The notes beneath the pieces were generated by a model. That model was given only the letters and a program-made list of their open reading frames with translations. It searched no databases and had not been told where the DNA came from. DNA of 40,883 bases from Bifidobacterium breve (lineage in GTDB: Bacteria; Actinomycetota; Actinomycetes; S36-B12): NCBI GenBank assembly GCA_945861925.1, contig CAMAWO010000004.1, positions 1 to 40,883 of the forward strand. The letters run 5' to 3'. Shown in pieces: positions 6,486 to 40,223 of the stretch. A program made the position numbers and the translations under genes. The stretch's first letter is position 1; every line of letters begins with the position of its first letter.

Positions 6486-7115
6486 CTACAGGACAGTGAC
6501 GGCTTCGTCGTACGCGTGGCGGGGATTGCGCGGATTGTTTGCCCCCTCGGCCACGTGCCCGAGATTCACGACGAGCAGGGACTTCAGGCCGGTGCCAGCG
6601 AAGAACTCCGCGTCGATGCCCGCCTTGTTGAAACCGCCCATTGGGCCGGCATCGAGGCCGACCGCCCGCGCGGCGATGATGAAGTAGCCCGCCTGGAGGG
6701 TGGCATTGAACAGTGCAGCCTGAGTTCGGGCTGCATCGTCGGCAAACTTGTCCTTCGCGTCCGGTACCTGCGGCAGGACGCGAGATAGATGCTCGTGAAA
6801 ATTGGTGTCGGCGGCGAGGATGGCAACGACCGGTGCGGAGAGGGACTTGGGGCGATTGCCCTCCGCGAGCAGGGGGAGAAGCCGGGCCTTGGCCCCGTCG
6901 CTGCGGATGAAGGTGATGCGCAGCGGCTGGGAGTTCATCGCAGTCGGGCCGAAGCGCATGAGGCCATAGAGCTCTGCGAGTTCCTCGTCGCTCACCGGGG
7001 CGTCTGTGAAGCCGTAGGCCGTGTGGGCATCATGGAACAGCAGGCTCGCGGTCTGCGCGTCGATGGCGCGGCTAACGGGTATCCCGCTGCTGGTGGATTC
7101 GGTGGTCGCGGTCAT
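6486..7115 (-). CDS. Nitroreductase-family NAD(P)H:FMN oxidoreductase, RutE/HadB-like
   Basis: The 209 residues match the RutE/HadB subgroup: YGLMRFGPTAMNSQPLRITF (FMN-phosphate loop), KSLSAPVVAILAAD, AALFNATLQAGYFIIAARAV and GLDAGPMGGFNKAGID. RutE reduces 3-hydroxypropionate semialdehyde (malonic semialdehyde) in pyrimidine catabolism. No other rut genes are nearby, so the substrate could be a different aldehyde or quinone. GGAG lies a few bases before the ATG. A near-perfect palindrome 34-61 bases upstream of the start (7149-7176) suggests control by a MarR/TetR-type repressor encoded elsewhere. Confidence 0.86.
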   Translation of the reverse strand: MTATTESTSSGIPVSRAIDAQTASLLFHDAHTAYGFTDAPVSDEELAELYGLMRFGPTAMNSQPLRITFIRSDGAKARLLPLLAEGNRPKSLSAPVVAILAADTNFHEHLSRVLPQVPDAKDKFADDAARTQAALFNATLQAGYFIIAARAVGLDAGPMGGFNKAGIDAEFFAGTGLKSLLVVNLGHVAEGANNPRNPRHAYDEAVTVL

Positions 7116-7148
7116 TGTGTCTCCTAGGTGCCCGTCGGGGTGCGAAGG

Positions 7149-7176
7149 TATGATGATTGATTATTCAACCATCATA
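7149..7176. promoter_or_regulatory. Operator-like inverted repeat upstream of the RutE-like gene
   Basis: TATGATGATTGA (7149-7160) and TCAACCATCATA (7165-7176) pair with a single mismatch around TTAT. The core TTGA-N4-TCAA form is typical of winged-helix dimers such as MarR-family repressors. It is AT-rich against a GC-rich background and lies where the promoter for the minus-strand gene ending at 6486 should be. Confidence 0.6.
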
Positions 7177-7221
7177 CGTGTCGTCGCTCGCACCGCCGGG
7201 CGGCTGCTCCCCTTTGGGGCC

Positions 7222-7617
7222 TCAGTAGCAGTTGCTCTCGCTGAGCGACGCTCCCTGCGCGCGTCTCTCGGACCGCGGCAAGGTCACTATCGCTGTCTGG
7301 CCGCGTCGCACGCGCGGGAGCACCGCGGCGACGTCCGAGAAAAAGACATTGGAGGGCGAGAGAAAGTCGGCCTGCGTCCACTGATTGAGGGACAGGTAGA
7401 GGCCGTGGGGGCAGGAGGTCGATACTGCGGTGACCTTGACCTGCCAGCAGGAACGAGGCGGGCAGTCCGGCCTTTTCACTAATGACCATCGAAGTCCGGA
7501 GACCTCCTGTGCCTGTGCGCTCGCGAGGCTAGGACTGACAATTGCGCACAGTGCCAATGCAAGCGATGCTGCCCATCGAATAGCGTCCACCTCCTTGCAC
7601 TGCTGACTATGGAACAT
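7222..7617 (-). CDS. Small secreted protein of unknown function
   Basis: From ATG at 7617 the frame gives 131 residues. It has a signal peptide (IRWAASLALALCAIVSPSLA, then SAQA) and a short mature part with five cysteines (KRPDCPPRSCW, STSCPHG, SESNCY) and no domain I know. The start is uncertain. The ATG lies upstream of a perfect AAGGAGG at 7590-7596, which would then fall inside the gene, and it leaves only two bases before the divergent ATG at 7620. An in-frame GTG (7590) overlaps AAGGAGG. An in-frame ATT (7581) sits eight bases past it and directly begins the signal peptide. The true N-terminus is probably nearer 7581-7590. Confidence 0.6.
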   Translation of the reverse strand: MFHSQQCKEVDAIRWAASLALALCAIVSPSLASAQAQEVSGLRWSLVKRPDCPPRSCWQVKVTAVSTSCPHGLYLSLNQWTQADFLSPSNVFFSDVAAVLPRVRRGQTAIVTLPRSERRAQGASLSESNCY

Positions 7618-7619
7618 CG

Positions 7620-8589
7620 ATGACCCGGCGCCGGTGGACGATGGCCTCGACGTCGGTTGCCGTGATGGTGGCCCTCGTGGCACGGGCTTCGACATCGACT
7701 GCCATCGCTGTTCAGCGCTTCGCCGTCGTTCCTGCCTTCGACCATACCCCCGTCTTCTTCTTCTTCTTCTCCGACGACAACAGGCGGGACGTGTCGACGC
7801 AGGCGTCGTCCCCGGTGAGCGGCGAGTTCGCACGCATCACCATGCGCGTGAGCTTGGACTGCCCTGCTGCTGGCTGCGATCCCTGGGACCGTTACGGCAC
7901 CATCGGCCTGGTGACCGAACCCGGCACAGGCGACTCCCCGGCGACAGTCATCGAGCTCGCGCGGTTTATGACGCCGTACGGGGTGGGTGGCCGATGGTCC
8001 CTCGACGTCACCGACATGCGCCCGATGCTGACCGGAGACGTGACCCTGGCGGCCCACATCGACACGTGGGTTGGGCCCGGGTAGCGACGGCGGGGCCGGC
8101 TGGCAGCTCAGTACGTGGTTCGATCTCGCCCCCGGTCGTCCTGAGCGCAAGGCCATCGCCGTCATCCCGGTGTGGTCGCCCCGCGAGGTTCGATATGGAG
8201 ATCCGATGGTCCCGACAGCGGCCGACGCGCCGACCGTTACCTTGGAACTCCCTGCGGCGAAGGAGTTCTCGCTGCGGACGTTCGTTACGGGCCATGGGCA
8301 GGGAAACCAGGATGACTGCGCCGAGTTCTGCCCGCGTACCCACTCCATCCGGGTCAACGGCGTGAGGCACGAAACCGCGGGTTGGCGCAACGACTGCGCC
8401 ACGTCTGGTGCCCGGGAGCACTCGTCAATCCCTGGGATGTTGATGTGAGCGGCGACATACCGGGCCGGACGGCCCGGGTGGCGTACGCCGTCACCCCGTA
8501 TGTCAACGGCGGCCGAGTACGACGGCGGCCGCCACACCCCGCCCATCTACCGGCTGTCAACGGTCCTCATCGCCTACTCAAACAACTGA
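7620..8589 (+). pseudogene. PNGase F-like (peptide-N-glycosidase F family) secreted protein, frameshifted
   Basis: Four consecutive pieces in alternating frames read as one protein. Piece one (to about 8072) has a signal peptide, FFFFFSDDNRRDVSTQ, CDPWDRYGTI, then RFMTPYGVGGRWSLDVTD and HIDTWVGPG. Piece two (about 8076-8395) has GWQLSTWFD, AVIPVWSPREVRYGDP, TGHGQGNQDDCAEFC and WRNDC. Piece three (about 8396-8505) has HVWCPGALVNPWDVD and TPYVNGG. Piece four (to TGA at 8587-8589) has HTPPIYRLSTVLIAY. The order is that of the two jelly-roll domains of PNGase F relatives, which cleave N-glycans from asparagine. One extra G near 8073-8078 explains the first shift; the second comes with an apparent loss of about 20 residues before WCPG. 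Decay is more likely than sequencing error because three lesions occur within 450 bases. Confidence 0.72.
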
Positions 8590-26811: not shown

Positions 26812-28047
26812 ATGGCAGTCGCGAATCCCCCGGGCGCGTACCGTGGGGACGTGACGATAGAGCCCGGTACGCCGCCCGCAGGCCATGACCTGAGCCGAGC
26901 AGACCTCGAGGGCATGTTCGAGAAGCGACTGGCAGAGGCCTTTGCGGCTCTCGGAACCTTCAACCTCGCAGTCTTCGGCAAGACGGGTGCGGGAAAGTCG
27001 ACCCTCGTCAATGCCATCTTTGGTCGCGATGTCGCGAGGACTGGCGTGGGGCAACCAGTGACAAAGGGCCTCGTCTACCACCGGCATCCTGACGGATTCC
27101 TCGGCCTGTATGACTCGGAGGGATTCGAGACGGGCACGGCGGGCAACGTCATCCTCGAAGGCCTACGAGCCCTCGTCGCGGACCATGGCACACGGCCGGT
27201 GGACCAGCGAATCCACGCGGCCTGGTACCTCGTCCGATGGTCTGACCGTCGATTCGAAGGCGCCCAGGCGGAGTTCGTCCGTGCACTCCGTGACCTCGGA
27301 CTGCCGGTGATCGTCGTCATGGCGCAGGTCCCCACCCGTGACGGGGTCATCCACCCCGATGCCCTCGAGTTCGCGCGCTACATCGAGGGACTCGGCCTGC
27401 CCCTTGCGCCGAACGGCCGCGTCGTTCACACGAATGCGCTCGTTGACGAGTTCAGCGGCGCTCCGGTTTTCGGACTCCAGCAATTGCTCGACGCCACCTA
27501 CGAGGTGGTTCCCGAGGTTGCTGAGAGGGCGCTAACGGCGGCGCAGGTTCTGGATATCGGGCGTAAAAAAAAAGTGGTCGCTGGCATCGTTAACCAGGCC
27601 GTCGTCATCGCCGCGGGGATCGGAGCGACCCCGATCCCGTTCACTGACGCAGCACTCCTCATCCCCAATCAGGTGACGATGATCGCGCGCATCACCGCCG
27701 CGTACGGGCTGCCGCCGAGCCGGTCGAGGGCCATGGCTGCGGCGGGATCGATCATCCTCACCGGCGGAGCAACGATGGCGGGCAAGTACGCCGTCACGAA
27801 CCTGATGAAACTCGTGCCCGGAGGGGCCATTGCCGGCTCGGCGATCTCGGCGGCCGTTGCCGCATCGCTCACCAAGGCCGTGGGATTGGCGTGGTCGCGG
27901 GTGTGCGAGTACGCGGTGTCGCTTCCCGACGACCAGCGCGACCGGTTCCTTGAGAGCGGCGAGGTCACCCAAAAGTTCGTTGGGTTCATGAAGGCCGGGG
28001 GAGTCGCCTCGGCCTTTGGGGGACTCGGACGCAAAGGCGGTTCGTGA
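26812..28047 (+). CDS. Dynamin-like/Era-type GTPase with C-terminal DUF697-like membrane region
   Basis: The 411 residues (or 398 from GTG at 26851, which leaves more room for the divergent promoter) begin with a G domain: P-loop VFGKTGAGKSTLVN, Thr of G2 in GQPVTKG and DSEG as G3. The base-recognition motif is not the usual NKxD; VMAQVPTRD occupies that place. The C-terminal third is hydrophobic (VVIAAGIGATPIPFTDAALL, then IILTGGATMAGKYAV and AIAGSAISAAVAASLTKAVG), like the YcjF/DUF697 region that associates with membranes. The role is unknown. An A9 run at 27565-27573 encodes Lys-Lys-Lys between the halves. The stop overlaps the VanZ-like gene by four bases. Confidence 0.78.
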   Translation: MAVANPPGAYRGDVTIEPGTPPAGHDLSRADLEGMFEKRLAEAFAALGTFNLAVFGKTGAGKSTLVNAIFGRDVARTGVGQPVTKGLVYHRHPDGFLGLYDSEGFETGTAGNVILEGLRALVADHGTRPVDQRIHAAWYLVRWSDRRFEGAQAEFVRALRDLGLPVIVVMAQVPTRDGVIHPDALEFARYIEGLGLPLAPNGRVVHTNALVDEFSGAPVFGLQQLLDATYEVVPEVAERALTAAQVLDIGRKKKVVAGIVNQAVVIAAGIGATPIPFTDAALLIPNQVTMIARITAAYGLPPSRSRAMAAAGSIILTGGATMAGKYAVTNLMKLVPGGAIAGSAISAAVAASLTKAVGLAWSRVCEYAVSLPDDQRDRFLESGEVTQKFVGFMKAGGVASAFGGLGRKGGS

Positions 28048-37519: not shown

Positions 37520-37635
37520 TGGTCGAAATGGCCGACAAGTACGTATGAAGTGAGGAATACCCATCATTGGTAACGGGGCTGACTATGTTCTAATGGTGGT
37601 GCATCTAGTAGCGCGTTGCCTTTGAGGAGTTGCCC

Positions 37636-38301
37636 ATGAGAGTCTCCCGTGTCGCCCTCGCTGCTGTTACGGGCACACTGGTCGCTGGATCATTGGGTGT
37701 GGGGATCGTGATGGCACCATCGGCCTCTGCCGCAATTGTGACCACGTCCCAGATCAACTGCGGGACGAGTGCCGCCTCTGCGACCGTGACGGCCCCAACC
37801 GCACTTGCGGCAGGCGACACGCTGGTGGTGAGCTACACGGACTGCAACAACTACAACCTGACACGGAGCAACTTCGCCGAGAGCACCGTGTACAACGTCA
37901 TCGGTGCCAGCGCTCAGACTCAGACCTTGACGGTCTACGCCGGTGCGACCACAGCGGGCACGACGTTGGCCACGCTCACGGGCACATCCGGCGGTACCGC
38001 AAAGACGATCACCATCGAGCAGGCGGCTGCGGATCCGTGGACCGCAAAGACGCCGGGATCTGGAACTGTCGGCACGGCTTACACGTACACATTTGCCGCG
38101 ACGGGAGCAACCGCAACCTCCTACGCCCTCGGCTCCGGCACCCTCCCGACCGGACTCTCGCTCGCCAACACCGGGATCCTCAGCGGGACGCCAACCACTA
38201 CGGGCAGCTTCACGTTCGCAGTGACGGCAACAGTCGGGTCAACCGTTTCCACCGGCAACGTAACGGTCGTTGTCACGGGGGTCCGGTCATCACGAAGGTG
38301 A
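37636..38301 (+). CDS. Surface protein, N-terminal part (frameshifted at a G5 run)
   Basis: ATG at 37636 follows GAGGAG (37624-37629) by six bases. The part has a signal peptide (VALAAVTGTLVAGSLGVGIV, then APSASAA), a beta domain with Cys42 and Cys70, and a putative Ig domain of the He_PIG type at 139-202 (GTVGTAYTYTFAATGATATS, LPTGLSLANTGILSGTPTTT). In frame it stops at 38299-38301 after VVVTG plus six out-of-frame residues. One added G in the run at 38277-38281 joins it smoothly to the frame that continues to 40154. I treat both as one broken or slip-translated gene. The product would be exported. Confidence 0.75.
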   Translation: MRVSRVALAAVTGTLVAGSLGVGIVMAPSASAAIVTTSQINCGTSAASATVTAPTALAAGDTLVVSYTDCNNYNLTRSNFAESTVYNVIGASAQTQTLTVYAGATTAGTTLATLTGTSGGTAKTITIEQAAADPWTAKTPGSGTVGTAYTYTFAATGATATSYALGSGTLPTGLSLANTGILSGTPTTTGSFTFAVTATVGSTVSTGNVTVVVTGVRSSRR

Positions 38302-40154
38302 CGATCTGCCATCGAACCAGGGCGACGACCAATCCCTACGTCCTCATCACCGTTTCGGTGAACTCGGTCATCGGGAGCGGCGGTGGCAATGGTCACAGTA
38401 ACCACAACACGACGAGCACGAACCTAGTGAACCCCACGACGAACGGAATCACGCCCGGATCCGGGCCCTTCGACACGTCATGGACCTATGCATCGAACCG
38501 CAAGTGGTGGGGCGACATCATCCCGCCATTCACGTACAGCTCCGGTTCGTACGCCGGTCTCAACTGGGGGCCGAGTACCGGGACCACGTGGGCCTGGCCG
38601 AATCCAACGACGACCTCGGCGACTGACTGGTTGCAGGCGAGCGAGTTCGCGACAGCCGTGAGCGCGGCACCGAGTAGCACCTACAAGACTGCTGTCGAAC
38701 AGTGCATGGATCTCGGTGCCTCGGGCGCCCAATCTGTGAAGTCGGCTGCGATGGACACTCCGCAGGAGTACTTCAACGTCTCGGTCAACGAAGGCGAGGA
38801 TCCCACCTCGGTTCAGTCAGACTTGTCCGATCAGTCACCTGATCCGGCCTATTCGACTGCTGATCTCGTCCTGTCCACCCTGGAGACTGCCCAGGCGGCT
38901 GCGGCCCCCGTGCAGACCGACGCAGCCTCGGGTACGACGACCACGACCTCGAACCTCAACGGAACGCTCAAGACCGGCTCGACGTGGACCTCATGGCGAT
39001 TCGAATGGGGCCTGAGTGCTGCGTCAGTTCGAGACGGCTCAGGCTCGACGTACACCTACACGCCGGGCACGGACCCATCTAGCTCGATCGGAGCGGGCCC
39101 GCGAAGTCCGACCTACGCCATGACCGGGCTCACCTGCGGCACGACCTACTACTTCCGAGTCGTCGGCGTTGACAATGCGGCGCCTGCTGTCACGTCATAC
39201 GGAGCCTTCAATTCGTTCAGTACGTCGTCATGCGGTGGTTCTGGTGGTGGTTCCAGCGGCGGCAGCTCGTCCGGGGGTGGGTCGACCTCGACCACGTCGA
39301 CCTCAACCACGTCGACATCTGCGACGACCTCGCCCGGCGTCGGGGCGGTGAAGAAGCCGGAAACCGAGAAGGTGAAGCCCGGCAAGGACATCACGCTCGT
39401 CGACGGGGAGCCCGCGAAGACCGAGACGAAGAAGGACGGGAAGTCCACGAAGGTCGAGATCTCCGGGCCCGAGTTCGAGGTTGAGGTCGGAGGGACGACG
39501 CCTGCGGGCGCGCCGCTGCCGCTGACCCCGGGGGGAGCTCCGATCGTCGCGCCAAAGGAAAAGGTGGCAACGAGCGGAAAGGGATATGCCCCCGGCACCT
39601 CGATCGAGGTGTACCTCCTCGATCCACTGACATCGCTCGGCTCATTCCCGGTGAACCCCGACGGAACCTTCTCCGGGAGCGTCACCCTGCCCCCGACCCT
39701 TCCCCCGGGCGAGTACGTCATTCAGATGAATGGATACACACCGACGTCGCAGGTCAGGTCGGTTTCGGTCGGGATATCTGTTCGGTCGGCAGCGCTCGTC
39801 CTGTGCTCGGAGGGGACGACGGCAAAGTCGTCTGCGGCTTGCCCTAGTAAGCCTCAGCGCCCGAGGAAGGGGTTCATCCTGCCCGATGAGCTTCTTGGAG
39901 GCCGCAACCTGCTGATTCCGACTCGCGTCCGGATGAACTCCGGCGTGTTCGCCGACGTGCAGGCGCTCTGTACTCCCGTGCTGCGCTCAGCGCCTAAGGG
40001 TGACATTGCCTACTGCGCGACAACGCGGGAGGGGAAGAAGACATACGTCCTCATCCGCCCGGATATGCGGCTGTCCGCGCAGGTGGTCATCTCCGCGCCG
40101 GCAACGGAGAAGTACGCAGCCTACAAATTCACGAAGCGTTACAAGGTCAACTAG
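38280..40154 (+). CDS. Surface protein, C-terminal part (continues the gene at 37636)
   Basis: This frame has no start of its own with a ribosome-binding site; read from 38280 it continues ...TG with GPVITKVTICHRTRATTNPY. The CHRTxxxTNPYV block, followed by GNGHSNHN, is a Cys/His module seen in secreted bacterial proteins. Further on come an FN3-like segment (WRFEWGLSAASVRDGSGSTY, then TYYFRVVGVD), a Gly/Ser and Ser/Thr linker, a Lys/Glu-rich stretch and a repeat-type beta domain (GKGYAPGTSIEVYLLDPLTS, LPPGEYVIQMNGYTP). There is no LPXTG or clear membrane anchor at the end. Together the two parts make about 839 residues. The role, perhaps adhesion, is unknown. Confidence 0.72.
   Translation, partial: GPVITKVTICHRTRATTNPYVLITVSVNSVIGSGGGNGHSNHNTTSTNLVNPTTNGITPGSGPFDTSWTYASNRKWWGDIIPPFTYSSGSYAGLNWGPSTGTTWAWPNPTTTSATDWLQASEFATAVSAAPSSTYKTAVEQCMDLGASGAQSVKSAAMDTPQEYFNVSVNEGEDPTSVQSDLSDQSPDPAYSTADLVLSTLETAQAAAAPVQTDAASGTTTTTSNLNGTLKTGSTWTSWRFEWGLSAASVRDGSGSTYTYTPGTDPSSSIGAGPRSPTYAMTGLTCGTTYYFRVVGVDNAAPAVTSYGAFNSFSTSSCGGSGGGSSGGSSSGGGSTSTTSTSTTSTSATTSPGVGAVKKPETEKVKPGKDITLVDGEPAKTETKKDGKSTKVEISGPEFEVEVGGTTPAGAPLPLTPGGAPIVAPKEKVATSGKGYAPGTSIEVYLLDPLTSLGSFPVNPDGTFSGSVTLPPTLPPGEYVIQMNGYTPTSQVRSVSVGISVRSAALVLCSEGTTAKSSAACPSKPQRPRKGFILPDELLGGRNLLIPTRVRMNSGVFADVQALCTPVLRSAPKGDIAYCATTREGKKTYVLIRPDMRLSAQVVISAPATEKYAAYKFTKRYKVN
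39281..39325. repeat. Three 15-base tandem repeats encoding Ser/Thr linker
   Basis: The units GTCGACCTCGACCAC, GTCGACCTCAACCAC and GTCGACATCTGCGAC are near-identical and encode a Ser-Thr linker of the surface protein. Such repeats can change copy number by slippage and so alter linker length. Confidence 0.6.
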
Positions 40155-40185
40155 CACCAGCCGACAGGCGTAAGATTCGCAGATT

Positions 40186-40223
40186 GACGAGGGCCGCGCA
40201 CCGCGAGGTGGGCGGCCCTCGTC
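40186..40223. terminator. Perfect 12-bp hairpin after the surface-protein gene
   Basis: GACGAGGGCCGC (40186-40197) and GCGGCCCTCGTC (40212-40223) pair exactly with a 14-base loop. It lies 32 bases after the surface-protein stop and 19 bases before the lysA start. It probably isolates lysA from that gene, although it could also attenuate lysA. Confidence 0.8.

Follow-up and report, generated by a model that had tools for sequence, protein, structure and literature searches.

A split gene for a secreted Ig/FN3-like protein between argS and lysA of an actinomycete MAG

Layout of the locus and of the encoded protein

The window (the whole stretch of DNA analysed, 40,883 nucleotides, corresponding to contig C4) derives from a MAG of 3.67 Mb in 334 contigs, with 87.6% completeness and 6.2% contamination, and the best named relatives of its argS are from Candidatus Nanopelagicales and other actinomycete MAGs, so that the source is probably an uncultured actinobacterium of Candidatus Nanopelagicales. 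In the interval between argS and lysA, a gene is found that is split into two frames of the forward strand. The features of this interval are the following.

37520-40217, + strand: accessory cassette in the argS-lysA interval, missing from the congeners G001 and G003 (occupied versus empty site)
37636-38301, + strand: ORF1, with a signal-peptide-like N-terminus, a conserved N-domain and a He_PIG Ig-like domain, ending with TGA
37636-37731, + strand: putative Sec-type signal peptide (MRVSRVALAAVTGTLVAGSLGVGIVMAPSASA), assigned by inspection of the sequence
38050-38277, + strand: He_PIG (PF05345) putative Ig domain, ORF1 residues 139-214 (hmmscan E 8.6e-10)
38277-38281, + strand: GGGGG run, the frame change lying within about 38277-38290
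38283-40154, + strand: downstream frame, intact, 623 codons plus stop
38292-38600, + strand: conserved module KVTICHRT...NPY.LITVS...WGDIIPPF, also present in further secreted proteins within the family and the order
38298-38301, + strand: GTGA, overlap between the ORF1 stop and a GTG that is in frame with the downstream part; candidate site for reinitiation
38913-39182, + strand: FN3-like region, with model strands at residues 211-297 of 623 and FN3 structures among the Foldseek hits
39393-39791, + strand: confident beta-sandwich module, with pLDDT of about 78-95 over most of its length, common to many family paralogues
40187-40222, + strand: perfect 11-bp inverted repeat (ACGAGGGCCGC / GCGGCCCTCGT) 3' of the gene, read from the sequence

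According to the ORF list and the sequence itself, ORF1 begins with the ATG at 37636, shortly preceded by GGAG, and terminates with the TGA at 38299-38301. The second frame extends to 40154, has 623 codons beyond the GGGGG tract and is free of stops upstream as far back as 37623, so that stop codons alone would permit a join anywhere in ORF1. The last matched He_PIG residue falls at 38277, that is, the domain ends at the junction. Downstream of the gene, the inverted repeat likely represents a terminator-type hairpin lacking a T-run; accordingly, no terminator was reported after the gene by a consensus scan requiring such a run.

The downstream part consists of the KVTICHRT module, for which no Pfam match was obtained, the FN3-like region, a G/S/T-rich linker and the beta-sandwich, the latter recurring in many secreted paralogues. 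Its AlphaFold model has a mean pLDDT of 56 and is usable only in the FN3-like and beta-sandwich regions. With Foldseek, low-coverage hits to FN3, adhesin and further Ig-type sandwiches were obtained, and a sequence search of solved structures gave nothing meaningful. In outline, He_PIG and the modelled FN3/Ig-type beta-sandwiches support a secreted, Ig/FN3-like protein, as had been proposed from the sequence-only reading. Its further description as a surface protein is not sustained, as a C-terminal or surface anchor was not noticed in the sequence.

One ancestral gene in a dispensable cassette

A clear ortholog was found in only one of 85 family genomes, the congener G002. This gene (contig C43) adjoins argS, as does the window gene, is 73-79% identical over the matched parts and stays in a single open frame across the junction as far as the end of the contig. 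At the junction, ...STGNITVTISGVAISKVTICHR... is encoded by a single frame of the ortholog, whereas the corresponding window sequence, ...STGNVTVVVT / PVITKVTICHR..., is distributed over two. Pairwise dN/dS versus G002 is 0.15 for the N part (211 codons) and 0.16 for the C part (381 codons), compared with 0.047 for argS, and in both halves most differences are at codon position 3. Moreover, a second lesion, either stop or frame change, is not present in the 214 + 623 codons. By this comparison, the two frames are demonstrated to encode one protein and to descend from one ancestral gene. As both halves are constrained, the second half was under selection as a protein until recently; a lack of purifying selection on the downstream frame, named as a refuting observation in the sequence-only reading, was thus not found. 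Most family matches to the gene are free of internal stops. The locus is single copy in the MAG, with no second copy representing another allele, and no relatives of the downstream frame were found among genome contigs and viral contigs.

The cassette of ~2.7 kb, comprising the gene and most of the downstream inverted repeat, is present or absent en bloc. In G001 and G003, which are 97-98% identical to the window in the C-terminal part of argS, lysA lies only about 164 bp from argS, and immediately downstream of the argS stop their sequence rejoins that of the window at 40218. Most relatives likewise have lysA directly next to argS, at distances of 42-220 bp, while at the equivalent place in G020 (L025) a related intact ORF of 851 residues is located. 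Absence of the cassette from two congeners and adjacency of argS and lysA in most relatives establish that its loss is tolerated and the gene is dispensable. The occupied/empty site also fits a high turnover of secreted Ig/FN3-like proteins in the lineage.

Two related genes on another contig of the same MAG (C59) are decayed, at positions 529-2966 and 7011-7656 of locus L120. The first has an in-frame stop near L120:1976 and a frame change near L120:2330, before the Gly-rich linker, and its original C-terminus is lost or replaced; the second is devoid of the N-terminal part.

Position and cause of the frame change

The segment enclosed by matched anchors measures 58 bases in the window versus 56 in G002. 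When a 2-base gap was slid along this segment, the best placement was at 38283-38284 with 40 identities, just beyond the G-run, inside which 38 were reached. Judged by homology, the frame change may fall anywhere within about 38277-38290, so that the G-run does not define the point of the join. Thus, frames, coordinates, tract and the derivation from one protein were correctly recognized in the sequence-only reading, but not the exact join at G5. The simplest difference from G002 would be a net gain of 2 bases, frame-equivalent to -1. Loss of one base from the G-run might explain the frame change as well, but would need an additional in-frame codon difference; codon-sized gaps are common around the junction in the window/G002 alignment. 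The G5 at the junction is unremarkable. G/C runs of at least 5 bases occur 71 times in the window (43 G-runs and 28 C-runs), with eight in the split gene, and a random 14-base interval of the gene overlaps such a run 5.5% of the time.

The explanation that we favour, and hold to be just about probable, is that a recent indel has inactivated an accessory gene for a secreted protein. A single small indel within 38277-38290, net +2 compared to the congener ortholog, would have interrupted a formerly continuous gene, the ancestral product of which would have been secreted, of multi-domain Ig/FN3-like type and about 840 residues long. As now read, the gene would give a secreted product of 221 residues, ending just past the He_PIG domain, while the downstream 623 codons would be left un- or poorly translated. 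The mutation would be recent because neither half shows other decay. In line with loss, the continuous G002 ortholog is found at the equivalent place after argS, the cassette is dispensable and two related genes on C59 are decayed. A genuine mutation and a loss of function are what we infer. Counting against a real mutation are the MAG source, in which an error at one site may occur, and the single true ortholog found. In the GeneTack survey, singleton frameshifts having homologue support are regarded as indels or sequencing errors (PMC3711429), which would agree with an indel, but according to the same paper such singletons are expected to represent sequencing errors and not genuine indels (PMC3711429), which speaks against a real mutation.

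The main rival, tentative but to be taken seriously, is a consensus or assembly error, with an intact gene in the population and a MAG sequence that is off by a small indel near 38277-38290. Such an error would agree with the contamination of the MAG, with the pristine and constrained downstream frame and with the frequent assignment of homologue-supported singleton frameshifts to errors (PMC3711429). However, with proteins from congener samples and other loci as queries, covering about 90 kb of the sample from this MAG (G000), no other homology-supported frameshift was detected, and window genes with close NCBIfam matches appear full length, with SigB/F/G, kgd, sodN, tgt and argS aligning over most of the respective model. 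Hence, the assembly is not generally poor, and a broadly error-prone assembly is unsupported. In addition, the simplest difference from the congener amounts to 2 bases, unlike a homopolymer miscount. Of the four options raised by the sequence-only reading, recent mutation and sequencing error are the favoured ones.

In the course of the same check, two raw frame-change candidates in G000 were dropped, one being Lsr2 in the wrong frame and the other judged to result from a wrong query ORF. In G003 (133 kb checked), one likely frame change due to mutation or error was found in lsr2 (L150, about 1564), and in G001 (114 kb checked) an ATPase-like gene is likely disrupted (L171, about 9282), the frame change being accompanied by a nearby in-frame stop.

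Two coupled ORFs, with ribosomes restarting at the GTG at 38298 via GTGA and producing the downstream part without a signal peptide, are improbable. The four-base overlap of the ORF1 stop with an in-frame GTG and the intact downstream frame would allow this, but a clear Shine-Dalgarno sequence ahead of this GTG is missing. The same bases encode KVT within the continuous ortholog, making the overlap a by-product, and a beta-sandwich protein lacking a signal peptide would remain cytoplasmic. Fusion of both parts in one frame in G002 also argues against separate coupled genes.

Switching and recoding, even when taken jointly, are improbable, too, and it is very doubtful that on/off switching or recoding takes place at low frequency at the junction, with the He_PIG-ended form of 221 residues as the usual product. 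A phase-variable tract, in which polymerase slippage at the G-run would toggle the full-length protein, is hard to credit. The G-run at the junction and the secreted nature of the protein would suit it, and a variable C5/C6 tract that differs between strains has been reported for Neisseria meningitidis NMB1760 (PMC5084427), a precedent by which G5 switching is unlikely, yet possible. On the other hand, a Campylobacter survey employed a cut-off of at least 7 G/C, with switching demonstrated for tracts of at least 8 (PMC6321876), so that the G5 falls below both the cut-off and the proven lengths. Furthermore, it is one of 71 comparable runs in the window, the sole ortholog is without a G-run at the junction and the best indel position lies just beyond the run. 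Least likely of all is programmed -1 ribosomal frameshifting at the G-run with short and long products, for which a frame-0 GGG codon following a G could re-pair one base back, but in the frame-0 sequence ACG GGG GTC neither ACG/GGG nor GGG/GTC can both re-pair, inspection revealed no in-frame X XXY YYZ slippery heptamer at the junction, an RNA of 100 nt starting at the tract does not fold more stably than shuffled sequences (z +0.69; 150 of 200 shuffles at least as stable), the slip site is missing from the continuous ortholog, and the frameshift is a singleton, unlike recoding sites, for which conservation across clusters is described (PMC3711429). Hence, neither the phase-variable tract nor the programmed slippage considered in the sequence-only reading finds support.

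Elsewhere in the window, an A9 run at 27565-27573 lies inside a GTPase/DUF697-like ORF (26812-28047), in a genome with 65% GC. G001 has the identical run, and in both G001 and G003 the ORF is uninterrupted. As a slippage candidate, this A9 run is better than the G5.

Comparison with known systems

Relative to dnaX-type programmed frameshifting, the likeness is limited to a -1 change joining the two frames, whereas the window site is without tandem-slip heptamer, stable downstream structure and conservation. The poly-G phase-variable genes of Campylobacter and Neisseria (PMC6321876, PMC5084427) share with the window gene an outer or secreted protein and a G-run near the frame change. However, their tracts have at least 7 bases, mostly 9-10 (PMC6321876, PMC5084427), while that in the window has 5, is unconserved and shows no observed length variation. 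As a caution, short G-runs located at frame breaks of a GC-rich MAG should not be taken for phase variation. Beyond annotation, the interrupted gene matters little.

In architecture, the protein resembles the He_PIG/FN3-like secreted proteins of Actinobacteria, with which it has in common He_PIG, the FN3-like region, the G/S/T-rich linker and the beta-sandwich module. It differs in a C-terminal segment of its own, for which the alignment to the RA..G..RR-type terminus seen in most paralogues is poor. With respect to the interruption, the singleton frameshifted genes or hypothetical pseudogenes of the GeneTack survey (PMC3711429) are similar in having an interrupted gene, a continuous homologue and no conserved frameshift motif, and, like these singletons (PMC3711429), the window gene is without a tandem repeat at the frameshift site. 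In contrast to them (PMC3711429), the cassette is here missing from close relatives and related genes of the same genome are decayed.
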